Source: Micrococcales bacterium 31B (GTDB lineage: Bacteria > Actinomycetota > Actinomycetes > Actinomycetales > Dermabacteraceae). Taken from it: a stretch of DNA of 64,000 nucleotides. Every line of letters starts with the position of its first letter. Position 1 is the first letter of the stretch. Below the pieces are notes generated by a model. That model saw nothing but the letters and a program-made list of their open reading frames with translations. It made no database searches and was not told the origin of the DNA. A program made the translations under genes and the position numbers. Shown in pieces: positions 36,790-51,159 of the stretch. The DNA lies in NCBI GenBank assembly GCA_022803075.1, contig JAFFTF010000002.1, positions 522,507 to 586,506 of the forward strand, in the 5' to 3' direction.

Positions 36790-37779
36790 ATGTCGCACGT
36801 GACCATGGAGGACGTCGCGAAGGCCGCCGGCGTCTCCCGGGCGCTCGTTTCACTTGCCTATCGCAATGCTCCCGGAGTCTCGACCGCCAGCCGCGAGAGA
36901 ATCCTGAAGACGGGCTCCGACCTCGGCTATCGGCACAATCGGATAGCGGCGGCCCTCGCCAGCAAGGGCGGCAAGACCCTGGGCGTGCACCTGCTCGACC
37001 TGCACAACGATGTGTTCGCCGACATGTTCGATGGCATCCGCGAAACGCTTGACAGCACCGGCCACCATCTCGTGCTCTCGGTCGGCACCATCGACGGCAG
37101 CCTCGACCTCAGCGCGCTGCACACCCTGCAGCAGTCGCGCGTGACGGCCATCATCGCCGCCGGGTTGCTACTTTCGGACGCGGCCGCGCACGAGATCGCC
37201 GCCGCAACCCCACTCATCTGCGCCTCCCGAGTGATCGACGGTCTCGACTCGGTCTCGGCCGACGACCACGAAGGCGCGCGCCTTGCCACGCAGCACCTGA
37301 TCGACCTCGGCCACTCCCGCATCGCCTTTCTCGCCAATCCGCCTTCCGATGGCTATGGACTCCGACTCGCCGGCTACCACTTCGCCATGCGGGCCGCGGG
37401 GTTGCCGCCACTCGTCGCCCCCTCCGCGTATTCGCGCGACATCGCCGCCCGCGACACCACCGCGCTCCTTGCTACCGCGACTCCCCCGACCGCGATCATC
37501 GCCCACAACGACCAGGCCGCCTTTGGGGCCCTCGACGCCGCCGCAGACCGGGGCGTCGCCGTGCCCGAAGAGCTGTCGATCGTGGGTTACGACGACAGCT
37601 CGCCGAGTCGGGCGCCTGGCACCGCCCTCACGACGGTGGCGATTCGGGGACGCGAGATCGGGCAGTTGGCAGCCCAGGCCGCCCTGGCGCGGCTCGACGA
37701 CCGGTCCGCACCTCCATTGCGCACCATCCTGACCCCGCGCCTCGCGGTGCGCGCGACCACCGCGCCCCCGGCACGGTAA
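36790..37779 (+). CDS. LacI-family regulator of the oxidoreductase/porter module
   Basis: A 329-residue LacI/GalR-family repressor. The DNA-binding helix-turn-helix is VTMEDVAKAAGVSRALVSLA (residues 4-23), and the hinge YRHNRIAAALASKGGKTLGV leads to the effector domain, which ends AVRATTAPPAR. The ATG at 36790 is preferred because AAGGGG lies before it; an upstream in-frame start at 36760 would add ten residues without a clear ribosome site. Two copies of the perfect palindrome CTAGAGCGCTCTAG, one on each side of the gene (36725 and 37914), are the likely operators. The effector is presumably the sugar carried by the porter. Confidence 0.9.
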   Translation: MSHVTMEDVAKAAGVSRALVSLAYRNAPGVSTASRERILKTGSDLGYRHNRIAAALASKGGKTLGVHLLDLHNDVFADMFDGIRETLDSTGHHLVLSVGTIDGSLDLSALHTLQQSRVTAIIAAGLLLSDAAAHEIAAATPLICASRVIDGLDSVSADDHEGARLATQHLIDLGHSRIAFLANPPSDGYGLRLAGYHFAMRAAGLPPLVAPSAYSRDIAARDTTALLATATPPTAIIAHNDQAAFGALDAAADRGVAVPEELSIVGYDDSSPSRAPGTALTTVAIRGREIGQLAAQAALARLDDRSAPPLRTILTPRLAVRATTAPPAR

Positions 37780-37913
37780 GCGGTCGACCAACCGGCACCG
37801 CCGCCTCGCGCACAATCGCGAAGCGTCCACGCGGGCTAGCATCCCCGGGGAAACTTTGTCCGAACAAACCCTTGCAATCGGCGAGCCCGGCATTTACTGT
37901 TGTCTAGTCAAAC

Positions 37914-37929
37914 TCTAGAGCGCTCTAGA
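37914..37929 (+). promoter_or_regulatory. LacI-type operator, copy 2
   Basis: TCTAGAGCGCTCTAGA is a perfect 16-bp palindrome sharing a 14-bp core with the site at 36725-36740. It is 26 bases upstream of the sugar porter start codon (37955), placing it over or just after the promoter, where binding would block transcription of the porter and the universal stress gene. Confidence 0.75.
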
Positions 37930-37954
37930 AGCGCTTTCATGCAAAGGAGCATGC

Positions 37955-39394
37955 ATGTCTCACTCCTCCATCGAACCTCACACACCCCTACCGCCACTCA
38001 GCCGTGGCCCGCACTCGAAGCGACTCGGCATCATCTCCTACGTCGCGACCTTCGGCGGGCTCCTCTTTGGTTACGACACGGGCGTCATCAACGGCGCACT
38101 CGAACCGCTGCGGCGCGAATTGCAGATCAGCGCCACCATCGAGGGCTTCGTCGTCTCGATCCTGATCTTCGGCGCCGCACTCGGAGCCGTCATCGGCGGT
38201 CGACTCGCGGATCGCTACGGTCGCCGCCACAATATCCTCCTGCTGGCGGGAGTATTCATCGTGGGCACGCTCCTGTGCACGCTCTCCCCCACGTGGCAAG
38301 TGCTCGCGGTCGGCCGCTTCATCCTCGGGCTCGCAGTCGGCGGTGCGTCGGCCACCGTGCCCGTCTACCTTGCCGAAATCTCGCCCTACGAAAAGCGCGG
38401 CTCCCTCGTCACCCGCAACGAAATGATGATCGTGAGCGGTCAGTTCGCGGCCTTCGTCATCAACGCAGTGCTCTATCACTTCTTTAGCCACGTCGACAGC
38501 ATCTGGCGCTTCATGCTGCTCGTCGCGGTGCTGCCAGCCATCGCTTTGCTCGTGGGCATGGTGTTCCTGCCCGAGAGCCCCCGGTGGCTGATCAGTCAGG
38601 GTCGCCCCGAAGCGGCTCATGCGGTACTGCTGCAGGTGCGCGACAGCGCCCGCGCCCGGGCCGAAATGGACGAGGTGCAGCACCTCGCCGACGAAGAGGC
38701 CGCCATGAAGACCGGAGGCTGGGCTGACCTGGCCGTGCCGTGGATTCGCCGCCTGATCATCATCGGCGCCCTCATTGGCGTATTCTCGCAGCTCTCGGGA
38801 ATCAACGCCGTCATGTACTACGGCTCCGAACTACTGAGAAACGCTGGCTTCGCGGCTGACGCGGCCATCGTCTTCAACACCCTCAACGGCCTCGTGAGCG
38901 TCCTGGGCGTGCTGATCAGTATGCGACTGATTAACCGCCTCAATCGTCGCACCATGCTCATCGCAGGTTTCGTGCTGACCACCACGTTTCACCTGCTCAT
39001 AGCCCTGACTGCCATGCTTCTGCCCGACGGGGACCTCAAGATGTGGCTGATCCTCGTGTTTGTGCTCTGCTTCGTGCTCTCCATGCAGGGCGCGATCGGA
39101 CCACTCGCGTGGCTCATGCTCTCCGAAATCTTCCCGCTCAAAATTCGCAGCTTCGCCATGGGCGTGGCCGTGTTCACCCTCTGGATCGCAAACGCCGTGG
39201 TCGCCTTCGCGTTCCCCCCACTTATTGCCGCCGCAGGTATCGCGCTGACGTTCTTCGTCTTCGTGGCCTTTGGACTCGTTGCCATAGTGACCCTCTACCG
39301 CATGCTGCCCGAGACCCGTGGCAAGACCCTGGAGGAATTCGAAGACGAGGCCCGACTGGGTTTCGCCGCCCCCGGAGCGTCCAACGCTCGCTAG
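37955..39394 (+). CDS. Sugar porter family MFS transporter
   Basis: A 479-residue, 12-helix MFS carrier of the sugar porter family. The signatures are all present: GGLLFGYDTGVINGAL in helix 1, GGRLADRYGRR in loop 2-3, AEISPYEKRG after helix 4, FLPESPRWLISQGR after helix 6, QLSGINAVMYYG in helix 7 (sugar binding) and LPETRGKTLEEFE at the end. It is closest in style to bacterial inositol/xylose/hexose proton symporters. It is controlled by the upstream palindromic operator and followed 30 bases on by a universal stress protein gene. The ATG has AAAGGAGC upstream. Confidence 0.93.
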   Translation: MSHSSIEPHTPLPPLSRGPHSKRLGIISYVATFGGLLFGYDTGVINGALEPLRRELQISATIEGFVVSILIFGAALGAVIGGRLADRYGRRHNILLLAGVFIVGTLLCTLSPTWQVLAVGRFILGLAVGGASATVPVYLAEISPYEKRGSLVTRNEMMIVSGQFAAFVINAVLYHFFSHVDSIWRFMLLVAVLPAIALLVGMVFLPESPRWLISQGRPEAAHAVLLQVRDSARARAEMDEVQHLADEEAAMKTGGWADLAVPWIRRLIIIGALIGVFSQLSGINAVMYYGSELLRNAGFAADAAIVFNTLNGLVSVLGVLISMRLINRLNRRTMLIAGFVLTTTFHLLIALTAMLLPDGDLKMWLILVFVLCFVLSMQGAIGPLAWLMLSEIFPLKIRSFAMGVAVFTLWIANAVVAFAFPPLIAAAGIALTFFVFVAFGLVAIVTLYRMLPETRGKTLEEFEDEARLGFAAPGASNAR

Positions 39395-39424
39395 ACCACT
39401 TGGTAACCCGCAACAAGGAGAATC

Positions 39425-39805
39425 ATGACCATCTTGATAGCAGTGACACACCGAGCCGAGGGCAGGGCGGCCCTTGCGGCCGGCCTCGCCGAGGCCCAAG
39501 GCCTGGGCACCTCCGCCATCATCGTTAACCTCGACATCGAGCCCTTCGACTCCGCGACGCTGCCCATTGATCTGCCGGGCGGGCTTGTCGAACGCATCAT
39601 CGAGCGGCACGGCAAGTCCGACCGCGACCCGGCGAACGCGGTCCTCGACGAGATCCACGCGGACCCCAACATCTCGCGGGTGGTGATTGGGATGCGGCGA
39701 CGCACCCCGGTGGGAAAGGCGCTGCTGGGCAGCCTGAGTCAGAGCATTCTGCTCGACTCACCCGTGCCGGTGCTCGCGGTCAAGCCCGCCGCGAACCCGG
39801 CCTGA
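39425..39805 (+). CDS. Universal stress protein, UspA family
   Basis: A 126-residue single-domain Usp protein. It starts MTILIAVTHRAEGRAALAAG and ends with the family ATP-binding pattern VVIGMRRRTPVGKALLGSLS followed by SPVPVLAVK. The Gly-x2-Gly-x9-Gly-Ser nucleotide loop is approximately kept but with basic residues inserted. It is the second gene of the sugar porter transcript, with AAGGAG before the ATG. Its role may be to adjust transport or metabolism under energy stress; that is inference from co-transcription. Confidence 0.87.
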   Translation: MTILIAVTHRAEGRAALAAGLAEAQGLGTSAIIVNLDIEPFDSATLPIDLPGGLVERIIERHGKSDRDPANAVLDEIHADPNISRVVIGMRRRTPVGKALLGSLSQSILLDSPVPVLAVKPAANPA

Positions 39806-39927
39806 ACTCGCGGCTCACCCGCCGCACGAGAAAAGTTCCCCGTTCGGCAGTTCTGCCCGGCATCTCGCCATGGGCGTACAAAACCAGATTTCGTGAGGTA
39901 TAGGCGGCGCGAGAAGAACACAACCGG

Positions 39928-39984
39928 TAGTTTTGTATGCAGGGGATTTGAACCATCCGAAGCCAGACCTTTAGTTTTGCATGC
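39928..39984. repeat. Direct repeat TAGTTTTGYATGC before telA
   Basis: TAGTTTTGTATGC (39928-39940) and TAGTTTTGCATGC (39972-39984) are 44 bases apart, about four helical turns, in the AT-richer gap (39806-40037) before the Ter operon. An inverted relative, GTACAAAACCA, occurs near 39878. They may be binding sites for a regulator of the Ter operon. Between them lies a stretch that reads GGTTCAAATCC on the minus strand, like a tRNA T-loop, but without a foldable tRNA around it. Confidence 0.5.
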
Positions 39985-40037: not shown

Positions 40038-41258
40038 ATGAGCAGCCTGAACTTTGACGCGCAGCCGAACCCGGCCACCAACTCGGGGGCCACGGCACCG
40101 CAAAGCGCCGAGATCGTGCTCACGCCGCCCACGCCCGTGGTCGCCGTGACCACCCAGCAGGCAGACTCGGTGACGAATCAGGTGGTACCAACCGAGAAGC
40201 AGTCCCAGGCCACCGCCATGGCGCAGAGTTGGGTCAGCGAACTCCTCAAGAACGAGTTCAACTCCCCCGCGTTCCGCGCGAAGGTCGCCGAAGTGACCGC
40301 CATCGGCACGACCGAAATCAATCAGTCGTCGTCGGCGTCAAACCGCATGCTGCAAAGGCCAGCGGTCCGCAATCAGGGCGACACCGCGCAAACGCGCGTC
40401 TCGAACACGCTCTCAGAACTGCGGCGCACGGTGACCGAGCTCGACCCCAACCGCGCCGATCTCACGGGCGGTAAGAAGCTGCTGAAGTTCCTTCCGGGCG
40501 GCGTGCGCAACAAGATCGAAGACTACTTCGCCAAGTATCAGTCGGCGCAGAGCCAACTCGACGCCATCACCGCTTCTTTGGCATCGGGTCAAGACGAGTT
40601 GCGCAAAGATAATGCCGAGATCGACGTCGTACGCAAAGACATGTGGGAGGCGATGGGCAAGCTCGGCCAGTACAAGATCTTGGCCGAAGAGATCGGTCGC
40701 GCCGTCGAGAACAAGGCCAACGAGTTGGAGGCCATGGGGCAGACCGAGGAGGCCACGGGCCTGCGCGCAGACGTCTTGTTTGCCGCCAACCAGCGCCATC
40801 AAGACATCATGACGCAGATGGCGGTCAACGTGCAGGGCTACCTGGCCCTCGACGTGGTGCAGAAGAACAACACCGAGCTCATCAAGGGTGTCGACCGCGC
40901 CCGCACCACGACCCTCTCCGCGCTGCGCACGGCCGTCATCGTGTCGCAGGCCCTCAGCCAGCAGCAAATCGTGCTGAACCAAATCAATGCCGTGAACGCC
41001 GCGACGTCCGACATGATCTTGAAGACCTCCGAGCAGCTGAAGCAGCAGGGTTCGCAGATCAATCAGCAGGCATCTCAGGCCAGCGTCGACGTCGAAAAGT
41101 TGAAGTCGGCGTTCCAGAACGTGTTCGAAGCCCTCGACGCGGTCGACACCTACCGCATCAAGGCCAACGACTCGATCAAGCAGACGATTGGCGCGCTCGA
41201 AACTCAGGTCGCGTCGGCACAGACGTACCTCGAACGCTCCAACCGCGGTCAGTCCTAG
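40038..41258 (+). CDS. telA: TelA-family toxic anion resistance protein
   Basis: A 406-residue TelA/KlaA-type protein, mainly helical. After a low-complexity N-terminus (Thr/Gln/Pro-rich, residues 1-55), the core includes LLKFLPGGVRNKIEDYFAKY, then long coiled-coil stretches (YQSAQSQLDAITASLASGQD, KANELEAMGQTEEATGLRAD) and LRTAVIVSQALSQQQIVLNQ. TelA proteins occur with TerD, TerC and related partners in stress islands linked to tellurite, phage and metal-ion resistance. GAGGAG precedes the ATG. It is the first gene of a ten-gene rightward unit ending at 48608. Confidence 0.9.
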   Translation: MSSLNFDAQPNPATNSGATAPQSAEIVLTPPTPVVAVTTQQADSVTNQVVPTEKQSQATAMAQSWVSELLKNEFNSPAFRAKVAEVTAIGTTEINQSSSASNRMLQRPAVRNQGDTAQTRVSNTLSELRRTVTELDPNRADLTGGKKLLKFLPGGVRNKIEDYFAKYQSAQSQLDAITASLASGQDELRKDNAEIDVVRKDMWEAMGKLGQYKILAEEIGRAVENKANELEAMGQTEEATGLRADVLFAANQRHQDIMTQMAVNVQGYLALDVVQKNNTELIKGVDRARTTTLSALRTAVIVSQALSQQQIVLNQINAVNAATSDMILKTSEQLKQQGSQINQQASQASVDVEKLKSAFQNVFEALDAVDTYRIKANDSIKQTIGALETQVASAQTYLERSNRGQS

Positions 41259-41312
41259 CGAGCCCGTGGCCCTCCGCGCGGCGGGCCCTCGACGAAAGAA
41301 TCTCGTGGCGTC

Positions 41313-41822
41313 ATGAGTTGGTTTGATCGCATGCGGCAGCAAGGCCCCAGCGGCCCGGTGCCCCTACAAAACGGCGCGCAGCAATTCGGCGCGCCGCCAC
41401 CGGGTGCGCAGATCATCCGCGACGACATCATTCAACTCGTGTTCGAAATGGTGCTCAAGATCAATCGCTATGGCGGCAAGATCCCCACCGACGCCGCCGT
41501 GCTGTCGCGCTTGATCACCGATGCGATCCTCATCGTGGCACGCCGCGAGCAGCAGTTCGGCGAGACCATCGACATCGATTCGAAGGTCCTGTTCCGCGGC
41601 ATTCTCACGGATTATCTGCCGAACACGCTGTCGACGTATGCGCGCTCGGTCACGGGCGGCCCCAACGAAGAGTTCCGCCGTTCGCTCATTGAACAGTTGC
41701 ACCTCATGTTGGATCGCACGCAGCAGATCGTGCGCTCGGCCCAAGAGAATGACACGCGGGCGCTGCGCTCGCACCAGCAGTTCATGGAAACCCGCTTTCA
41801 CGAAACGGATCTTCGATTCTGA
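41313..41822 (+). CDS. Hypothetical protein of the Ter island
   Basis: A 169-residue protein I do not recognise. A proline/glutamine-rich start (residues 1-32) is followed by an all-helical core, DDIIQLVFEMVLKINRYGG, AVLSRLITDAILIVARREQQ and LHLMLDRTQQIVRSAQENDT, with no membrane segment. It lies 54 bases after telA, and its TGA overlaps the following terD start (TGATG), so it is co-translated with the Ter proteins. It may be a TelA partner, as small helical proteins are frequent next to telA. Confidence 0.7.
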   Translation: MSWFDRMRQQGPSGPVPLQNGAQQFGAPPPGAQIIRDDIIQLVFEMVLKINRYGGKIPTDAAVLSRLITDAILIVARREQQFGETIDIDSKVLFRGILTDYLPNTLSTYARSVTGGPNEEFRRSLIEQLHLMLDRTQQIVRSAQENDTRALRSHQQFMETRFHETDLRF

Positions 41823-42388
41823 TGACGCCTCAACCCATCGTCCGCGGCGCCAATGTCGCACTCTCCCGCGAGGTCGCGGGCCTCGAAACTGTCGTCGTTG
41901 GCGTCGATTGCGAAACCAAGGACGACGCCCTGCGTTCGAGCCTCACGTTCGCGGCCCTGCTGTGCGATGCGGACCGGCGCGCACCGGACGCCCAGCACTT
42001 CGTGTTCTTCAATCAGATGGTCTCGGCCGACCTCTCTACCGAGGTACGCGAGCAGACCTTCGGCAACGATGACGAGCAGATCGAGGTTGACCTCAACGTC
42101 GTGCCGCCGCACATCGAGAGCATCGAGTTCGTGCTGTACGTGAACGATTCGGGGGGCGTGCGGCGCACCCTGAAGCAGCTGCGTTCGTGCCGCATGCGAC
42201 TCCTGAACGCCCAGGGTAACGGCGAGATTGTGCGCACCGAAGACCTCGCCCCCTACTTTCAAACCGAGACCGCTTCGGTGCTGGGCCGCCTGTATCGCTA
42301 CAAGGGCGAGTGGAGGTTTAGGGTCACGGGCCAGGGCTACGCTGAGGGTCTGACTAAGCTCGCGCAAGATTACGGTGTGCCCCTGTGA
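41822..42388 (+). CDS. TerD-family protein 1
   Basis: A 188-residue TerD-domain protein. The fold is marked by [55 protein letters not shown] and [20 protein letters not shown]. The acidic calcium-binding loop is partly changed: canonical TerD has DLDASA after the first strand, where this protein has LCDADR, and NGDDEQI is replaced by GNDDEQI. It is therefore a diverged paralogue compared with the copies at 43778 and 45544. Its stop overlaps the next GTG start (GTGA). Confidence 0.88.
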
Positions 42389-43749
42389 CCATTTCGCCTG
42401 ACCGCGCTGAGCCTCGCACCGACCTGCCCTTCTTGCGCCGCCGCACGCCGCCACCACGGTCGGCGGCACCGGCCAGCGCCCCCGACCCGGGGTATCGCAT
42501 TAATTTTGAGCGGACGCGCCCGTCCTCCTCGGCAGGTTCGCCTCCCGCCCCCGTGGCGGCCCAGGCCTCCGCCGCGCCAGCCCCCGCGCAACCTGCCAGC
42601 CAGCCCGGTTCGCTGTCGTTCGACGCACCCGCACCAGCCCCGGCCCCTGCGCCAGCGCAGCCCGCTGTCCAGCCCGATTCGCTGTCGTTTGACGCACCCG
42701 CGCCAGCCCCGGCCCCCGCCCCAGCGCCCGCGGTTCAGCCCGGTTCGCTGTCGTTCGACGCTCCTGCACCAGCCCCGGCCCCCGCCCCAGCGCCTGCGCC
42801 TGCACCGCCCGCGGTTCAGCCCGGTTCGCTGTCGTTCGACGCTCCTGCACCAGCCCCGACCCCCACCCCGGCACCCGCGCAGCCCGCACAGCCCGCGATC
42901 CAGCCCGGTTCGCTCTCGTTCGACGCACCCGCCCCCGCGGCGGCCGACACGTCGACCTCCCTGGTATTCGCCTCCGAACCCGCGCCCACGACACCAGCCG
43001 GGCCCCAAACCCGCCTGTCGTTCGAACCCGCGCCACCCCCACAACCCGTGCCGCCCCAGCCAGCCAGCCCGGCGGCGTCCGGCCCCATTCGCTCGCCGCA
43101 GCCCGGCCAGCCGCTCGCCGCCACCCCAGCCGCGCAGGCGCCCCGCCGCAGGCCCCTGCCGATACTGCCTCCCGTACCACTCGTCGAGCGGGGCGCGCCC
43201 CTCATGCTTGACCCCACGGCGGCCAACGGCCGCCCCGTCATCATGATCGACCGGGTTCACGCGGGCATTGGCGGGCTGATCATCACCTACCGCGGCCCCG
43301 TACCGGCGACCGTCGGAGTGGCCTACGAAGATTCGACGGGCCTACCGGACGTGATCGAACAGAACGGCTCGTCGGGTCGCCACTCGCTCACCGACCCCAT
43401 TTTCTTTGCCACGCAGAACGGCGTGGTGCTCAACCTGCGGCGCGTGCGCGACCTGCGCCGCGCCATGATCTACCTGCGGCTCCCGCAGCCCACCGTAGGT
43501 ATTTTCACCCTCGAGACCACCCTCGGTATGCAGATAAACTGGCCGCTGGACGGCATGGAGCCCCCGTATCCCCCGGGTCAACGCGCACCCAACAGCCACG
43601 TGGCCGGGCCTACCATGTCGCTCCATGTTGTCGAAGGCGCCCTCGTTGTACGCCCCGAGATGAATTATCGCCCACCGGCGCTGCGGCCGCTGCTGGAGAC
43701 GTACGGTTACTCGTACATGTGGGCAGACTCCGACACCCCGATTGTCTAG
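42385..43749 (+). CDS. Pro/Ala-repeat protein of the Ter island
   Basis: A 454-residue protein with a GTG start, of no family I recognise. Residues 60-195 contain five copies of [14 protein letters not shown] or close variants, separated by runs of alternating Pro and Ala, then weaker forms ([18 protein letters not shown]). The conserved element SLSFDAP may be a short linear binding motif presented on an extended linker. The C-terminal 190 residues are globular ([32 protein letters not shown] and [15 protein letters not shown]), probably a beta-rich domain. There is no signal peptide. It lies between TerD genes and is coupled to TerD 1, so it is likely a scaffold for Ter proteins. Confidence 0.7.
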
Positions 43750-43777
43750 AATCCACTAACACCGAAAGGACACAACC

Positions 43778-44365
43778 ATGGTGGTTAACCTCTCCAAGGG
43801 CGGCAACATCTCTCTCGAGAAGGCCGCTCCCGGAATGCTCAACGCCGTCGTCGGGTTGGGCTGGAACGCCCGCACCACAGACGGCGCACCCTTTGACCTC
43901 GACGCCTCGGTCGTCATCTGCGGCGTGGGCGCCAAAGCGCGTTCCGACGCCGACTTCGTGTTCTACAACAACACGCGCGGCGACAACGGCTCCGTCGAAC
44001 ACCTCGGCGACAACCGCACGGGCGAAGGCGACGGCGACGACGAGCAGATCATGGTGCACCTGAACCAGGTGAGCGCCGACGTCGACAAGATTGTCGCGAT
44101 CGTTTCGATCGACCAGGCGGATGCACGTCGCCAAAACTTCGGCCAGGTCTCCGACGCCTACATTCGCGTCTTCGACGCCGACGACCCGCACAATCAAGAC
44201 AAGTGGGTGCGCTTCGACCTCAGCGAGGACGCCTCCATGGAAACCGCTCTCATCTTCGGCGAGTTGTACCGCAAGGGCGACGGCTGGAGCTTCCGCGCCA
44301 TCGAGCAGGGCTACACCTCCGGACTCGCGGGCGTCATCAGCGATTTCGGCCTCATGGCCGGCTAA
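43778..44365 (+). CDS. TerD-family protein 2 (TerE/TerZ-like)
   Basis: A 195-residue canonical TerD-domain protein. It has VVNLSKGGNISLEKAAPGML, FDLDASVVICG and the calcium-binding NRTGEGDGDDEQIMVHL, followed by FDLSEDASMETALIFGELYR and SFRAIEQGYTSGL. Members bind calcium through the two acidic loops, which are intact here, and are required for tellurite and stress tolerance in other bacteria. AAAGGA lies seven bases upstream of the ATG. It is followed after three bases by the DUF475 gene. Confidence 0.93.
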   Translation: MVVNLSKGGNISLEKAAPGMLNAVVGLGWNARTTDGAPFDLDASVVICGVGAKARSDADFVFYNNTRGDNGSVEHLGDNRTGEGDGDDEQIMVHLNQVSADVDKIVAIVSIDQADARRQNFGQVSDAYIRVFDADDPHNQDKWVRFDLSEDASMETALIFGELYRKGDGWSFRAIEQGYTSGLAGVISDFGLMAG

Positions 44366-44368
44366 TCC

Positions 44369-45547
44369 ATGGGCCTCATCAAACACTTCCGTATCGACTT
44401 TGCCATCACGGCGCTCGCGCTCGTGGCGGCCTTTTGGTACGGCAGTTGGGCTGCGCTCGCGCTCACCGCGATCCTCATCGTCGTCGAAATCGTGTTTTCG
44501 TTCGACAATGCCGCGGTGAACGCCAAGTATCTCGAGCGCCTCAGCCCGTTCTGGCAGAAGATGTTCCTCACCGTAGGCATCTTGATTGCCGTATTCGGCA
44601 TGCGCCTCATCTTCCCCTTCGTGATCGTATGCGTCTCCGGCCAAGTCAACCCGGTCGAAGCCCTGCACCTCGCGATGGAGAAGGGTGACGCGAACGTACC
44701 CGGAACCTACGGCTACATCCTGCACGAGGCCCACCCCGCCATCGCCGCCTTCGGCGGCATGTTCCTGCTGCTGCTGTTCCTCGATTTCGTGTTCGATACC
44801 GAACGCGACATCGCCTGGCTGAAATGGATAGAGGTGCCCCTCGCGCGAGTGGGCCACCTCGATCAAATGTCGGTCATCGTCGCGGGCATCATGCTGCTCG
44901 TGGCCTCGGAGGTCTTTGTCGAAGAAGGCCACCGCGACACCGTCTTGATGTCGGGCCTGCTCGGCATCATCACGTACCTGGCCGTCAACGGCCTCGCGAG
45001 TGTCATGGAGAAACGCGAGGAGGCCAAGAACGAGCAGTTCGAACGCACCGCCTCCGCCGGTAAGGCGCTAGTGCTGCACGGTCGCGCCGCCCTGTCGTTG
45101 TTTTTCTTCCTCGAAGTTCTCGACGCGACCTTCTCATTCGACGGTGTGATCGGCGCGTTTGCGATCACGACTGACCCGATCATCATCGCGCTCGGTCTCG
45201 GCGTCGGCGCCCTGTATGTGCGCTCCATGACCGTGTACCTCGTGCGGCAGGGCACGCTTAACGAGTACCGATACCTCGAACACGGTGCCCACTGGGCCAT
45301 TGGCTCCCTGGCGGTGCTTCTGCTCATCACCCTGCGGTGGGAGATTCCCGATGTCGTGATCGGTCTGGTCGGCATCCTGTTCATTACGGCCGCATTCCTC
45401 TCCTCACGCACCGCTAATACACGGGACGCCGCGGCGGCCCTCGCCGAAGCGGAGCACACGACCCTCATGGCCCACGACTCCACGGCCCACGAACCCCGGG
45501 GGCGCGCGGGTACCCCACTCATCACTCCAGAAAAGGACATCTCATGA
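44369..45547 (+). CDS. DUF475 / TerC-like integral membrane protein
   Basis: A 392-residue membrane protein of the DUF475 branch of the TerC superfamily. The start FRIDFAITALALVAAFWYGS and the motif EIVFSFDNAAVNAKYLERLS, with its acidic SFDNA, are the hallmarks; a second copy, EVLDATFSFDGVIGAFAIT, occurs in the second half, giving the internal symmetry of the family. There are about nine hydrophobic segments. TerC proteins are thought to move or sense metal ions (manganese in some) and to assemble with TerD proteins at the membrane. Its stop overlaps the next ATG by four bases. Confidence 0.92.
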   Translation: MGLIKHFRIDFAITALALVAAFWYGSWAALALTAILIVVEIVFSFDNAAVNAKYLERLSPFWQKMFLTVGILIAVFGMRLIFPFVIVCVSGQVNPVEALHLAMEKGDANVPGTYGYILHEAHPAIAAFGGMFLLLLFLDFVFDTERDIAWLKWIEVPLARVGHLDQMSVIVAGIMLLVASEVFVEEGHRDTVLMSGLLGIITYLAVNGLASVMEKREEAKNEQFERTASAGKALVLHGRAALSLFFFLEVLDATFSFDGVIGAFAITTDPIIIALGLGVGALYVRSMTVYLVRQGTLNEYRYLEHGAHWAIGSLAVLLLITLRWEIPDVVIGLVGILFITAAFLSSRTANTRDAAAALAEAEHTTLMAHDSTAHEPRGRAGTPLITPEKDIS

Positions 45548-46125
45548 GCATTAACCTTCAAAAGAACTCCACCATCAACCTCGCGAAGTCCGATGGCAGC
45601 GCGCTCAGTGCGGTGCGCATGGGCCTCGGCTGGGACGCCGTCAAGAAGAAGGGCTTCCTCGCCGCGCTCACCGGTGGCGGCGGAGACATCGACCTGGACG
45701 CCTCCGCGATTCTCATGCGCAACACGGGCGAAGCCGAAGTCATCTACTTCGGTAACCTCAATTCGCGCGACGGATCGATCCGTCATACGGGCGACAACCT
45801 CACGGGTGCGGGCGACGGCGACGACGAGTCTATTCTGGTCGACCTGACGCGAGTCGAGGCCTCGGTGACCCACATGTATTTTGTGGTCTCCTCGTTCCGC
45901 GGGCAGAACTTCAGCCAGGTACAGAACGCCTTCGTGCGCGTGCTCGACTGCTCAGGCCGCGAAACCGAAATTGCTCGCTTCATGCTGACCGAGCAGGGTG
46001 ACCACACGGGCCTCATCATGGCCGGCCTCAAGCGCACGCCGAGCGGCTGGACCTTCACCGCCATCGGTCAGCCCGCCTTTGCGCGCGTACCGATGGAGAT
46101 GGTTCCGAGCCTTCCAGCCCTCTGA
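45544..46125 (+). CDS. TerD-family protein 3
   Basis: A 193-residue TerD-domain protein. It has INLQKNSTINLAKSDGSALS, GDIDLDASAILMRNTG and the acidic NLTGAGDGDDESILVDL, then FMLTEQGDHTGLIMAGLKR and TFTAIGQPAFARVP. Both calcium loops are intact. Compared with TerD 2 it is shorter at the C-terminus and has a KKKGFLAALTGGGG insertion before the first acidic strand, as in TerD/TerX-type copies. AAAAGGA precedes the ATG, which overlaps the DUF475 stop. The HAD gene begins one base after its TGA. Confidence 0.93.
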   Translation: MSINLQKNSTINLAKSDGSALSAVRMGLGWDAVKKKGFLAALTGGGGDIDLDASAILMRNTGEAEVIYFGNLNSRDGSIRHTGDNLTGAGDGDDESILVDLTRVEASVTHMYFVVSSFRGQNFSQVQNAFVRVLDCSGRETEIARFMLTEQGDHTGLIMAGLKRTPSGWTFTAIGQPAFARVPMEMVPSLPAL

Positions 46126-46126
46126 C

Positions 46127-46816
46127 GTGCAAATTCAGGCCGTCAGCTTCGACATTTGGCTCACGCTGATCCGCAGCGATCCGCAGTTTAAGCGCACCCG
46201 CAATGCCATGCTGCGCGCGGAGTTAGCGCCCAGCGTCGACGAACAGCAGTTCGACACGACCCTGCGCAAGATCGACTCGCTCGTCGACGACGAGAGTATC
46301 GCAACGGGCATCGACTTCGGCCTGATCCCGCGGGTACGTCGCACCCTCGAGGCCGTGGGCATCTCGCCCGCGGCCCTCGACGAATCCGAGGTGCAGACCG
46401 ACCTGCTCACGCGGCAGGCCAGCCTCGCCCGAGCCCACCCCCCACTACCCCTCGAACCGGGGTTGCCCGAGGCACTGCGGAACCTCGCGTCCGCGATGCC
46501 CGTGATCGTCACGAGCAACACCGGCATGCTGCCCGGCGACCTCATGCGCGACCTGCTTGACCTCGCCGGATTCGCCGAGGTATTCAGCGGGTACGTGTTT
46601 TCGAATGAGGTGGGGGTGCCTAAGCCGCACCGACCCATATTCGACGCGGCCTTGCGCGCCCTGGGTGATCCCGCCCCGGCCAGCGTGCTGCACGTGGGTG
46701 ATAATCCTCGCGCGGACGTCGACGGCGCCCGCGCCGCTGGACTCCAGGCTCGGCTCGTGAACGGCGAGGTCACCACCACTCGCCTCATCGCAGATCTACT
46801 CGCCGCAGCAACGTAA
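46127..46816 (+). CDS. HAD-superfamily hydrolase of the Ter island
   Basis: A 229-residue haloacid-dehalogenase-like protein. Motif I is AVSFDIWLTL (nucleophile Asp at residue 9, with Trp at the usual general-acid position two residues on), motif II VIVTSNTG, motif III Lys in VPKPHRPIF and motif IV HVGDNPRADV. The start is GTG at 46127, one base after the TerD stop; the frame is open further upstream, but that part is only a shadow of the TerD gene. The Asp-to-Trp change suggests phosphatase activity may be altered. HAD proteins are a known part of the Ter-associated nucleoside-like biosynthetic module. Confidence 0.83.
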   Translation: MQIQAVSFDIWLTLIRSDPQFKRTRNAMLRAELAPSVDEQQFDTTLRKIDSLVDDESIATGIDFGLIPRVRRTLEAVGISPAALDESEVQTDLLTRQASLARAHPPLPLEPGLPEALRNLASAMPVIVTSNTGMLPGDLMRDLLDLAGFAEVFSGYVFSNEVGVPKPHRPIFDAALRALGDPAPASVLHVGDNPRADVDGARAAGLQARLVNGEVTTTRLIADLLAAAT

Positions 46817-46921
46817 TGCGCGTCGCATGGGCAGACCTATCACCACCCGTGTGCGATGTCGTCATGGTGCGGGCGCGCCCCGCCCGCTAGTCTGAGGGGA
46901 CGCCTTCACACCAGGAGACCC

Positions 46922-47791
46922 ATGCCCCGGCACACCGCGACATCGACCCTGTTCGCGCTCGATCGACTCCATCGCTCCAGCGCCGACGGCTCCCTGCGCA
47001 CGTCTCGCGGCGAAAAGTTCGACGTGACCGGGTACTCCGCGATGAAGTATGGCGCGCGCTCCGAACTAGCGGCGCGCGGGGCGGCCCTCGGTGCCGCGCT
47101 CCTCGATAAGGCTCCGGCTCTCCGCACCGACCCCGCCGCTCCCCTGTTCCCCGTCGCCTACCTGCGGGTTCCGCCCGCCTGCTATTACCTGGCCGAATAC
47201 GCCGCTCACACTGTGAATGCGGCCCGCCGCGCGATAGACCCCGCACTACCAGCTGCGCACCTCGTGCGAATCGCCAAATCTGATGTCGTGGCCCTCGACT
47301 ATGCCTCCGCCACCGCGGACGAGCGCTCCGCCTCCCTGCAGAGCCTCACCTTCACCCTCGCGGAAGACGTCACCGGTCACGCCGTGGTGCTGGTCGACGA
47401 CGCGCGCATCACGGGCCACGCCGAGCGCACGGCAATCGACTGCGTTCTCGCTGCCGGCGAGCCGACCCGTGTGATCGGCGCGTGCCTGGTGGAGGTCGAC
47501 GCCGCCCTGCGCGCCGAACCCACCGTTGAGGCCGAGCTCAATCACGCGCTGATCACTCGCGCGGTAGACATGCTGCCCTGGATCGACCGCGGCGACTTCG
47601 TGCTGACGATTCGCTGGCTGAAGAACTTCCTCGCGCAGAGCGACGAATTTGCCTCAGCGTTGCCGCAGGTGCCCACCGACCTGCTACGCGCCATCGTGGA
47701 CGGCGCCCGCGGCAGTGGGCGCGGTGTCACTGCGGCCTACGCTACGGCGATCGAGGCCCTGACTCGCGAAGTGGAACGACGGGATGCCTAA
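46922..47791 (+). CDS. PRTase-like protein A of the Ter island
   Basis: A 289-residue protein with a type I phosphoribosyltransferase PRPP loop, AVVLVDDARITGHAERT (residues 154-170). Shared with the next gene are a GYSAMKYG motif (about residue 37) and a DYASATADERSASL-type segment before the PRPP loop, so the two are paralogues. The ATG at 46922 has AGGAGACC upstream; it is separated from the HAD gene by 105 bases and may have its own promoter. Ter islands in other bacteria carry PRTases of this kind, for which Anantharaman, Iyer and Aravind predicted a nucleoside-like product. Substrates are unknown. Confidence 0.8.
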   Translation: MPRHTATSTLFALDRLHRSSADGSLRTSRGEKFDVTGYSAMKYGARSELAARGAALGAALLDKAPALRTDPAAPLFPVAYLRVPPACYYLAEYAAHTVNAARRAIDPALPAAHLVRIAKSDVVALDYASATADERSASLQSLTFTLAEDVTGHAVVLVDDARITGHAERTAIDCVLAAGEPTRVIGACLVEVDAALRAEPTVEAELNHALITRAVDMLPWIDRGDFVLTIRWLKNFLAQSDEFASALPQVPTDLLRAIVDGARGSGRGVTAAYATAIEALTREVERRDA

Positions 47792-48608
47792 AGCTGCCGC
47801 ACTGAGCCTCGCCACGATTGAACTCGACCCCCTGCGCCTCGTGCCGCCCACGGGAGTCGTAAACCTCGCCGAATATAGCCGCTTCAAGTACGGCGACACC
47901 GCGGTGGCGGGGCACTATGGTCGGTATTTGGCGGACGCCATTGCGCCCTCCCTGCCAGCCTCGGCCCGCGTGCTCGTGACCGCCTCGGGCTACCATGCAG
48001 CCCCGCCGGCTGCGGCGTTTCTGGTGCCGCCCCTGTGCCGCAGGCTCGGCGAGTTGCTGCCTCACGCGCACGTCGAATCGTTCAAGGTGGAGCGCAGTAA
48101 CGTGACGAACGGGGACTATGCGACCCTCAGCCAGGCGGAACGGTACCGTGCCCTGCCCAAGGAGGCCCTGCGCGTCCCCGCCGATTTTGACCCCACCGAC
48201 GCTCTCGTGGTGGCGGTCGACGATGTGCGAGTGAGCGGGGTGCACGAGTCGGTCATGGATGCCGTACTGCGCGAGGCAGGTGCCCCTCACGTGCTCCACG
48301 GGTATGTGATCGATGCGTTTGCCGCGCGTGAGCACCCCGAACTGGAGGCCGAGCTCAACTCCGCGGCGGTGCGCTCCCTCGACGCGCTGATCGCGGTCAC
48401 GCGCGCGCCCCATTTCGAGCCGAACTCACGCCTTTGCAAGCGGGTCTTGCAATTGAGCGAGTCTGAGATGCACCGCTTCGTGCGTGGCGTGGCGCCCGAC
48501 CTCGCAGCGTGGGTGGCTGCGATGGCCGAGCGCGATCACCTGGCGACCGTGCCCGCGTATCGGGAGGGCGCCGCCCGCTACGCGAGTCTGGTGCCGCTGG
48601 GAGCTTAG
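47784..48608 (+). CDS. PRTase-like protein B of the Ter island
   Basis: A 274-residue paralogue of the preceding gene. The PRPP loop is ALVVAVDDVRVSGVHES (residues 140-156), the shared early motif is EYSRFKYGD (residues 30-38), and the conserved segment is NGDYATLSQAERYRAL (109-124). Before it, VLVTASGYHAAPPAAAFLVP resembles the pyrophosphate-binding strand of PRTases. It overlaps gene A by eight bases. Relative to typical PRTases, the loop's usual Thr-Gly is Ser-Gly here. It ends the Ter island, seven bases before the convergent lyase stop. Confidence 0.8.
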   Translation: MPKAAALSLATIELDPLRLVPPTGVVNLAEYSRFKYGDTAVAGHYGRYLADAIAPSLPASARVLVTASGYHAAPPAAAFLVPPLCRRLGELLPHAHVESFKVERSNVTNGDYATLSQAERYRALPKEALRVPADFDPTDALVVAVDDVRVSGVHESVMDAVLREAGAPHVLHGYVIDAFAAREHPELEAELNSAAVRSLDALIAVTRAPHFEPNSRLCKRVLQLSESEMHRFVRGVAPDLAAWVAAMAERDHLATVPAYREGAARYASLVPLGA

Positions 48609-48615
48609 ACCCAGG

Positions 48616-51159
48616 TCAGGGCGCCGTGGCGGTCACTCGCCAGGTCGCCGTAGCGTCCGCCGCGAATCGATACCCCACCTCGGGAACCGCCGTGACCGTC
48701 ACCGCGCCGATATTGCGATGGAACCCAGGGCTCAGCAGGGTGCCGTTCGCGTAATAGGTGACTCCCGGGGCGTCCGCGATCTCAAACCCGTCGCGGCCCT
48801 TGCCGGGCCGGTCCACGACGCGCGGCGCGGTGGGCACGGTGAGCCTCGTGAACACAGGCACGTCGGCGTAGTCGATGTCGGAGGCGAGTCGATACTCGGT
48901 ATAACTGGGCTGGTTGTACGCCGTGTTTTGCCGCGCCACCTCGGCCCGGTACTGCGGATCGTGCATGAGGGTCGTGAGTTTGCGGTCGGTCACCTCGGTC
49001 GAGAAGTACACGCGTATGGCGCTGCTGTCAGCGGTGCGCACGAGCAGCTCTTCGCGCCAGTCACCGAACACGTCGGCCACGAGGCCAGCATTACCCTTGG
49101 TGCCGTTGTTCGAGCGCGTGCCCGGTGCCGTAAAGACCACAGTGTTGTCGCCGTCGAGCAGGCTCACATCTTGGTCTCCGCTGCCGCTGACCAACTGCGT
49201 GGTCATGTCGGCGGCCCAGTGAATGGATTGATTGGTGCCCGCGCCCTCGGCCGGGGTGCCGGAGCCGGGGGGCATCGACGCCCAATACTCGAGTCCGGGC
49301 AGGGCAGGGTCGATGTCGCCTACCATGCCGCGGCCCGTATCTCTGCCCGAGTATGTGCCCGCCAGTACTTCGCCACTTGCGGCGTCGCGCAGCGCCCATC
49401 CGTAGGGGGCATTCGCGGCGCCCTCGTGCACCGTGAAGATTTCGAGCCCGGGATTACCGGGCACAATGTCGGTGACGTGCATGGCATCACCGTGGCCGAG
49501 GCGAGCGCTAGCTCCTGGATCGGCGCTGCCCTCGGGCAGGGTGTCGAAGGAGCTGTAGAGCAGGCTGCCATCGTCGTCGATCGTCGCCGAGCCGTACACG
49601 ACCTCCTGCTTGCCGTCTCCGTCCACGTCGGCGGCCGAAAGCGAGTGGAATCCCTGCGTGGTCAGCGTCGCGAATTCGGGATCAGTGCCATCGCGCCCGT
49701 GGGGTGAGTCGTTGAAGGGGTTGCTGAGCGGTACGTGACCGCTGTCGACGAACCAGCGCTGGGTCAGGTGCGTGCCGTCCCAGTCGTAGGTTCCGATGGT
49801 TGAGCGGGTGTAGTAGCCGCGGGCGAACACGGCCGAGGCGTGCTGGCCATCGAGGTAGGCAACTCCGGAGAGAAAGCGGTCGTTGCGGTTACCTGGCTCA
49901 ATGCGGGGCATGGCATAGTCGCCCCACAGCAGGCCATCGTCCCCCCGCGCCGGCGCGAAGGGCTGCGTTGCAAGTTCGGAGCCCGTCGCGCCGTCGAACA
50001 CCGTGAGGTATTCGGGCCCCTCCTGCACGAACCCCTCGAAATCGCGCAACGTATTGTTCGCGCTGCGCGAGGGCGCGTAAACGTCCATGAAGTAGTCGAC
50101 CAGCTCGCGCGCGGAGGAGTCGCTGAGCGGATACCCGTGCGTTACCGGAACGCCCAGCGCCTGCTCCACAGTGGCGGGCCATTGCCCCGAGGCCACCTCG
50201 GGCCGCTCGCTCCACCCAGCGAACACGGTCACCAGATGCTCGTAGTAGTCGGCGCTTGACCAGCGGTAGTCGTCCGCAGCGGTGACGCCGGCGGCGATAT
50301 CTGCCGCGGGCAGCGTGATGCCCGTGGTGACCCCCGCCGCGATGGTTTGGGTGCCGGGAGCGGTCTTCAGCATGATCTCCGACCTGCCATCTCCGTCGAA
50401 GTCGTACACCATGAACTGCGTGTAGTGCGCCCCCGAGCGGATGTTCACCCCGAGGTCAATGCGGTAGAGCAGGGTGCCATCGGTTTGGTACGCGTCGATG
50501 TAGGTGTTGCCGGTGTAGCCCTTTTGAGAGTTGTCCTTGGCGTTGGAGGGGTACCACTTCACCAGGTATTCATAGTCCCCGTCGCCGTCGAGGTCACCCA
50601 CCGACAGGTCGTTGGCCGAGTAATCGTAGGCCTCGCCTGCCGGGGTCACGCCAGGTGCGGGCTTCTGCAGGGGAATACTCACAAAGTTATCCGCCTGCGG
50701 GGTGGCGACCGCGCTGCGGGCGCCTTCGATTCCGTAGCGCACGGGGGCCACCTGGTAGCGCGCCCCGGGGGTGGCGTCGAGGTAGTTGGTGCTGTCGGTG
50801 ACGGTGGCTATGCGGCGGCCGTCGCGGTAAACCGCGAAGTCGACGCCGAGCATGCCCGTGTCGCCCGCTCCGAATGTCTCTTCGGCGAGCAGGCGCCAGC
50901 TCAGGTAGACCCCGTCGCCGGAGCGGGCCGCGACCAGCCCTCGGTCCAGCGCCTCGAGTTGGGGCGCTGCCGGGTTGGCTGCGTTCACGGGGTTCAGGGC
51001 GTATGCGCTGTTCGGGGGGTTAAGTGCGGACGCCGCGGTGGTCGCGTGGGCCGGGGCGGGCACCGCTGAAAGGGTGGCCGCGAACAGGGTCACGGTCGCG
51101 GCCGCGCCGAGCGCGGCACGCAGGGATCGCGGGTGAACAGGGTGTGGTCGTCTAGTCAT
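48616..51159 (-). CDS. Secreted rhamnogalacturonan lyase (PL11 type)
   Basis: An 847-residue secreted polysaccharide lyase. A signal peptide (hydrophobic ALGAAATVTLFAATLSAV, cleavage near AHA) is followed by a domain of family PL11 beta-propeller type, with calcium-binding acidic loops VGDLDGDGDYEYL, VYDFDGDGRSEIM and AADVDGDGKQEVVYG, and the typical RIDLGVNIRSGAHYTQFMVY and GDWREELLVRTAD. It would cleave the rhamnose-galacturonate backbone of pectin outside the cell. The C-terminus ends with a short beta-rich domain (FEIADAPGVTYYANGTLL). A LacI-type palindrome and 10-bp repeats lie upstream. It supplies the galacturonate/rhamnose route, complementing the uronate operon at 5-10 kb. Confidence 0.9.
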   Translation of the reverse strand: MTRRPHPVHPRSLRAALGAAATVTLFAATLSAVPAPAHATTAASALNPPNSAYALNPVNAANPAAPQLEALDRGLVAARSGDGVYLSWRLLAEETFGAGDTGMLGVDFAVYRDGRRIATVTDSTNYLDATPGARYQVAPVRYGIEGARSAVATPQADNFVSIPLQKPAPGVTPAGEAYDYSANDLSVGDLDGDGDYEYLVKWYPSNAKDNSQKGYTGNTYIDAYQTDGTLLYRIDLGVNIRSGAHYTQFMVYDFDGDGRSEIMLKTAPGTQTIAAGVTTGITLPAADIAAGVTAADDYRWSSADYYEHLVTVFAGWSERPEVASGQWPATVEQALGVPVTHGYPLSDSSARELVDYFMDVYAPSRSANNTLRDFEGFVQEGPEYLTVFDGATGSELATQPFAPARGDDGLLWGDYAMPRIEPGNRNDRFLSGVAYLDGQHASAVFARGYYTRSTIGTYDWDGTHLTQRWFVDSGHVPLSNPFNDSPHGRDGTDPEFATLTTQGFHSLSAADVDGDGKQEVVYGSATIDDDGSLLYSSFDTLPEGSADPGASARLGHGDAMHVTDIVPGNPGLEIFTVHEGAANAPYGWALRDAASGEVLAGTYSGRDTGRGMVGDIDPALPGLEYWASMPPGSGTPAEGAGTNQSIHWAADMTTQLVSGSGDQDVSLLDGDNTVVFTAPGTRSNNGTKGNAGLVADVFGDWREELLVRTADSSAIRVYFSTEVTDRKLTTLMHDPQYRAEVARQNTAYNQPSYTEYRLASDIDYADVPVFTRLTVPTAPRVVDRPGKGRDGFEIADAPGVTYYANGTLLSPGFHRNIGAVTVTAVPEVGYRFAADATATWRVTATAP

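Follow-up and report, generated by a model that had tools for sequence, protein, structure and literature searches.

Ter stress-response systems were reportedly described by Anantharaman, Iyer and Aravind in 2012. In the published Ter model, a phosphoribosyltransferase (PRTase) and a protein of the haloacid dehalogenase (HAD) superfamily make a signal, TerD proteins sense it, and TerC and TelA respond (PMC7824862). Here we describe a Ter operon of Micrococcales bacterium 31B, located at 40038-48608 of a 64,000-nucleotide window (the whole stretch of DNA that was analysed), which ends with the genes for a HAD protein and two PRTases, PRT1 and PRT2. It shares with the described systems the TerD sensors, TerC, TelA, and a PRTase and a HAD protein as predicted signal-making enzymes. 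It differs from them in having two PRTase_3 paralogues and a HAD protein with a D-x-W motif I, in its divergent TerD1 and TerA-like Pro/Ala protein, and in lacking ATP-grasp, lyase, StiP and TerB genes within the operon.

Like the operon studied here, the canonical Ter module (IncHI2 plasmid p39; P.aeruginosa pPUV-4) holds PRTase, HAD and Ter genes together. However, it has PRTase_2-TRSP, StiP, an HpcH/HpaI lyase and an ATP-grasp protein of its own, none of which is found in our operon, and its HAD proteins come from unrelated families with D-F-D-G-T or D-L-D-D-T as motif I. No protein of these two canonical modules matched the profiles of the window HAD or PRTases. HAD proteins of the same D-x-W subfamily are paired with PRTase_3 in phages and on rhizobial plasmids, where the two genes are adjacent and mostly overlap; these pairs differ in that they have a single PRTase and that their Ter genes are distant, nearby as TerC alone, or not seen. 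A precedent for pairs of a HAD protein and a PRTase dependent on phosphoribosyl pyrophosphate (PRPP) is provided by the ribofuranosyltransferases (PMC11127046), which combine gPRT with a HAD phosphatase (PDB 7SHG). The pairing logic is alike and this structure was among the fold matches of our HAD model, but the acceptor there is a glycan, whereas the present operon has no glycan genes and a phosphatase step is doubtful.

PRT1, PRT2 and the HAD protein

TerD-domain proteins, a TerC-family membrane protein and TelA stand together in a single operon, as in a Ter system, and the PRTase and HAD enzymes that belong to the definition of such systems as predicted makers of the signal (PMC7824862) are associated with it. 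PRT2 scored 86.8 bits against PRTase_3 (PF15610), exceeding the curated Pfam cut-off of 28.7. PRT1 scored 24.4 bits, below this cut-off, with a PRTase_3/Pribosyltran match at 2e-5; judged by alignment and tree, it is a clear PRTase_3 homologue. The two proteins have in common the motifs YSAMKYG/YSRFKYG, DYASATADER/DYATLSQAER and VVLVDDARITG/VVAVDDVRVSG (PRT1/PRT2), the last of which contains in both the acidic PRPP loop DDxR(I/V)(T/S)G. Because K, G, R, DD, (T/S)G, E, N and R are near-invariant in an alignment of 33 homologues (PRT1, PRT2 and single forms), the shared motifs are not due to chance.

The AlphaFold model of PRT1 (pLDDT 92.9) matched PyrR in the first rank (Z 10.1, rmsd 4.0, 143 residues; Foldseek and VIA-align). 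ComF aligned with Z 9.4 (VIA-align), PurR with cPRPP aligned as well, and the matches listed in the fold search were PRTase-fold proteins, while the viral fold library contained no confident match to this model. The sequence profiles of PRT1 and PRT2 matched PRTases of the PDB via the PRPP loop. By its modelled fold PRT1 is a type I PRTase. Thus the PRTase-like pair with shared motifs and PRPP loops that an earlier note had read from this DNA is borne out, for PRT1 also by structure prediction.

The PRTase tree places PRT1 and PRT2 in separate clades (support 100/99 and 100/98). Each clade holds actinobacterial, Saccharimonadia and betaproteobacterial members, so that the duplication predates the separation of these lineages. 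The exact place of the window PRT1 among the actinobacteria is unsure because its branch is long.

The HAD protein (AlphaFold pLDDT 92.9) carries the marks of its superfamily, i. e. the nucleophile Asp, S/T in motif II, Lys in motif III and GD(N/S)...D in motif IV. Its motif I, however, reads D-I-W and has no Asp at position +2. In HAD phosphatases this second Asp is the general acid/base (PMC12715507), and a plain phosphatase role of the protein is therefore doubtful. D-x-D is likewise absent from all 20 module HADs examined, every one of which has D-x-W-x-T. Among ten other readable HADs of the window genome, motif I was D-x-D in seven, D-K-T in two and D-F-G in one; D-x-W did not occur. Yet D-x-W is not peculiar to the module HADs, since it is also present in PDB 2OM6 (PH0253 from the archaeon P.horikoshii), the top match to the HAD protein in both sequence and fold, which is named in the PDB merely 'probable phosphoserine phosphatase'. 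Further fold neighbours are haloacid dehalogenases, phosphatases and the PRPP-dependent ribofuranosyltransferase with its HAD domain.

Distribution of the operon and of its enzyme unit

With the window genome counted each time, PRTase_3 was found in one of 47 genomes of the family, in five of 396 of the order and in 4/396 of the phylum (one of these matches lies below the family cut-off). The gene order TelA-helical protein-TerD1-TerA-like-TerD2-TerC-TerD3-HAD-PRT1-PRT2 occurs with small variations in nine distinct genomes of actinobacteria that belong to several genera. Among those with the full operon are Isoptericola, Paraoerskovia, Sediminihabitans, two Luteimicrobium and Allobranchiibius; operon profiles and selected Pfam scans served to class the genes that flank the related operons. 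Over nine genomes the pairwise distances of seven operon gene families correlate with each other (r 0.53-0.87, all permutation p < 0.001). In one of the operons, a gene for a 571-residue membrane protein, transporter-like by eye, lies between TerD1 and the helical gene (L019, 16043-17758).

Outside the actinobacteria, a Saccharimonadia (Patescibacterium) genome has TerD and TerC followed by HAD-PRT1-PRT2, and in a betaproteobacterium HAD-PRT1-PRT2 follows a vWA/TerD/PP2C/kinase cluster. The genome of this betaproteobacterial locus was the only one of 398 in its phylum with PRTase_3 above the cut-off. The PRT1 type was accompanied by Ter genes in all eight loci found, so that the joint conservation of HAD/PRTase and TerD genes on which the earlier note had staked its reading holds for this type. 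Natural fusions join HAD to PRT1 in two Luteimicrobium species and PRT1 to PRT2 in Allobranchiibius. Relatives of PRT1 were not found on plasmids.

A unit with one PRTase, in which the HAD gene adjoins and mostly overlaps that of PRTase_3, is present on Hymenobacter and rhizobial plasmids and in phages. The family has a different setting on a Citrobacter plasmid (L056, 3922-5909), where a larger PRTase_3-like protein is encoded beside genes annotated as radical SAM protein and histidinol-phosphatase; an AbpA gene and a helicase lie farther along. The PRTase family is carried by 154 of 50,697 phage records, and the HAD gene adjoined PRTase_3 in all six phage loci opened. A scan of viral contigs with PRT2 gave no confirmed match, although annotated phages carry the family. 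The groups with the pair are Justusliebigvirus and other Stephanstirmvirinae, Rhizobium phages, and jumbo phages of Caulobacter and Brevundimonas; in the latter TerD is encoded elsewhere in the genome (2/2 tested). That jumbo phages have Ter genes is mentioned in a published review (PMC7824862). At the Justusliebigvirus locus, HAD-PRTase_3 has genes for a macrodomain and for TerC nearby; phage JohannJBalmer of E.coli K-12 has a HAD-PRTase_3-macrodomain trio with TerC about 550 nucleotides on (L043, 5001-7216 and 7773-8750). A Rhizobium phage and a Klebsiella phage have their pairs close to genes for a NUDIX protein and a WGR-PARP (L052, 1840-4176; L053, 1846-5757). We found the HAD-PRTase_3 pair beside a macrodomain mentioned neither in the main text of PMC7824862 nor in that of a review on viral NAD systems.

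Operon structure, upstream elements and flanks

All features are collected in Table 1. The earlier note had described ten rightward genes, mostly overlapping or near-touching, and this description was confirmed: ten successive open reading frames on the + strand, at the coordinates and on the strand it gave, are nearly contiguous, with gaps of 54, -1, -4, 28, 3, -4, 1, 105 and -8 nucleotides in order. The widest break, 105 nucleotides, separates HAD from PRT1. Pfam agrees with its assignment of TelA, three TerD proteins, DUF475/TerC and HAD. What it had called a Pro/Ala-repeat protein does have a Pro/Ala-rich linker, but the C-terminus has to be added. Without any Pfam match as a whole, this protein ends in a domain that aligns with its C-terminal counterpart in TerA proteins of plasmids (hhalign E=5e-9, probability 95.9), for which reason we call it TerA-like. 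As the match to TerD itself was weak, the protein was not accepted as a TerD homologue. The helical second gene matched nothing in Pfam or NCBIfam.

The label 'island' was not upheld by composition. The GC content of the operon (65.7%) is close to that of the window (66.2%) and gives no sign of a recent import, and the window contains neither a tRNA as an island edge nor any Rfam RNA element.

Table 1. Genes of the Ter operon and candidate upstream element, with positions in the window
Feature	Position	Strand	Basis
TelA	40038..41258	+	Pfam PF05816, 4.8e-80
Helical protein between TelA and TerD1, no assigned family	41313..41822	+	position kept in 9/9 actinobacterial operons
TerD1, divergent TerD without GDGDDE-type acidic run	41822..42388	+	PF02342 1.1e-40; alignment
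Pro/Ala-rich linker and TerA-like C-terminal domain (about 43195-43749)	42385..43749	+	hhalign
TerD2, canonical, acidic GDGDDE present	43778..44365	+	PF02342 2.3e-71; alignment
DUF475/TerC-family membrane protein	44369..45547	+	PF04332 2.2e-122, PF03741 7.8e-17
TerD3, canonical acidic site	45544..46125	+	PF02342 1e-46
HAD-IA protein, motif I D9-I-W11-L-T	46127..46816	+	PF00702 3.6e-14
PRT1, type I PRTase by predicted fold, PRTase_3-like, PRPP loop VVLVDDARITG	46922..47791	+	Pfam, alignment, tree, AlphaFold
PRT2, PRTase_3 (PF15610), PRPP loop VVAVDDVRVSG	47784..48608	+	PF15610 2.1e-24
GTTTTGYATGC-like element, three copies, candidate operator	39874-39886 (inverted), 39928-39940, 39972-39984	.	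upstream of telA

Upstream of telA, GTTTTGYATGC-like matches with at most two mismatches occur three times against 0.57 expected, a number reached in 4 of 100 shuffles. Two of them are exact copies of TAGTTTTGYATGC, a sequence with no further exact match in the whole 3.93 Mb genome. The element is not conserved upstream of related operons; being confined to the window genome, it was rejected as a conserved promoter motif of the operon family. By eye, the upstream flank (36790-39805) encodes a LacI-type regulator, a sugar transporter and a UspA-like protein, and the downstream flank (48616-51159) a large convergent gene resembling a rhamnogalacturonan lyase.

Proposed role of the unit and alternatives

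With moderate confidence we propose that the locus is a complete Ter-type stress operon in which a dedicated HAD-PRT1-PRT2 module processes a PRPP-derived, nucleotide-like signal for a complex of TerD, TelA and TerC. PRT1 and PRT2, as ancient paralogues, would probably pair and transfer phosphoribosyl from PRPP to a base or another acceptor. The HAD protein would then process the product by attack of Asp9, without the usual acid/base of a phosphatase. The resulting nucleotide- or nucleoside-like molecule could be sensed by the TerD and TerA-like proteins; these may work at the membrane, together with TelA and TerC/DUF475, when the cell responds to metal, oxidative or phage stress. In its broad lines this is the published Ter model (PMC7824862), where the metabolite module of Ter-linked PRTase and HAD enzymes suggested in the earlier note already exists in outline; what we infer here is that two PRTases act as a pair and that the HAD step is unusual. 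The proposal is favoured by the kept operon order, the correlated distances of the operon genes, the natural fusions that link the enzymes physically, the occurrence of HAD-PRT1-PRT2 beside Ter genes in unrelated bacteria, and the PRTase fold and conserved PRPP loop. None of the 5027 models of PADLOC 2.0 for known antiphage systems matched, an absence that does not exclude a role in defence, and some phages encode the unit themselves.

Several observations weigh against this proposal. On rhizobial plasmids no gene annotated as Ter lies within about 9 kb of the HAD-PRTase_3 pair, and in two actinobacteria PRTase_3 occurs without adjacent HAD or Ter genes (L023, 9797-10741; L024, 9317-10255), so that the chemistry of HAD and PRTase_3 need not be that of a Ter signal. 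The D-x-W motif makes simple dephosphorylation by the HAD protein doubtful. With PyrR as the nearest fold, PRT1 could moreover be regulatory rather than catalytic. Extended to both paralogues, this last point would make PRT1 and PRT2 sensors of nucleotides or PRPP, similar to PyrR or to PurR, whose cPRPP-bound form also aligns, which regulate the operon instead of acting as enzymes. We consider this improbable: it leaves the overlap and fusion with the HAD unexplained, the PRPP loop is kept in both paralogues, Pfam finds no DNA-binding domain and the window has no Rfam attenuator.

The plasmid pairs without Ter genes also suit the idea that HAD and PRTase form a self-contained unit for nucleotide salvage or repair, for example of NAD/ADP-ribose breakdown products, which was recruited separately by Ter operons, plasmids and phages. 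The overlap of the two genes in most such loci resembles a minimal pathway, and genes for a macrodomain, a PARP and a NUDIX protein are among the neighbours in three phages. However, duplicates of the PRT1/PRT2 type were found beside Ter genes only (8/8 loci), TerD is encoded elsewhere in the genome (2/2 tested) or TerC nearby in phages that have the pair, and the bacterial operons contain no NAD-specific domain, which makes a salvage unit possible but rather unlikely. By contrast, it is very improbable, and largely refuted, that the locus is a reduced canonical biosynthetic module which has lost ATP-grasp, aldolase, StiP and PRTase_2 or has them encoded at a distance in the genome; for the ATP-grasp and aldolase partners the earlier note had suggested such a 'minimal form' or missing enzymes located elsewhere. 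The general setting is indeed the same, with TerD/TerC/TelA-type genes beside PRTase and HAD genes, but the canonical forms use PRTase_2-TRSP and D-x-D HADs of other families. The window genome has no PRTase_2 (PF15609) and no StiP (PF11202), and the search for further partners yielded for ATPgrasp_Ter (PF15632) carB (carbamoyl-phosphate synthase) alone, below the cut-off, and for C-C_Bond_Lyase (PF15617) two generic CitE-like genes on other contigs, one at 28.9 against a cut-off of 28.4, carB and CitE-like being the names that we read from the sequences. Such partners are inside the operon in none of the nine actinobacterial cases, whose flanks were Pfam-scanned in part. The module is a distinct unit of PRTase_3 and D-x-W HAD from which nothing is 'missing'.

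Haloacid dehalogenases have D-x-Y as motif I and attack carbon. A speculative and unlikely extension would be that the HAD is no phosphatase at all, its D-x-W nucleophile attacking a carbon centre in a comparable manner or holding a stable acyl or phospho intermediate. In that case PRTase_3 and HAD might act in two successive steps that make or consume a ribosyl signal of a new class, perhaps one related to NAD/ADP-ribose, which serves as an alarm for Ter operons and is tuned or erased by phages.

Ter proteins are widespread, and the Ter signal is predicted; we found no identification of it in the literature. The present analysis separates a compact enzyme unit, of three genes or, in phages, two, from the larger ATP-grasp module, maps its occurrence, and flags in the HAD protein a catalytic feature at odds with the phosphatase step that has been assumed. 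As E.coli K-12 phages (JohannJBalmer and relatives) have the two-gene form, the question of the Ter metabolite can be put to the test in a model host, and with a small number of genes.

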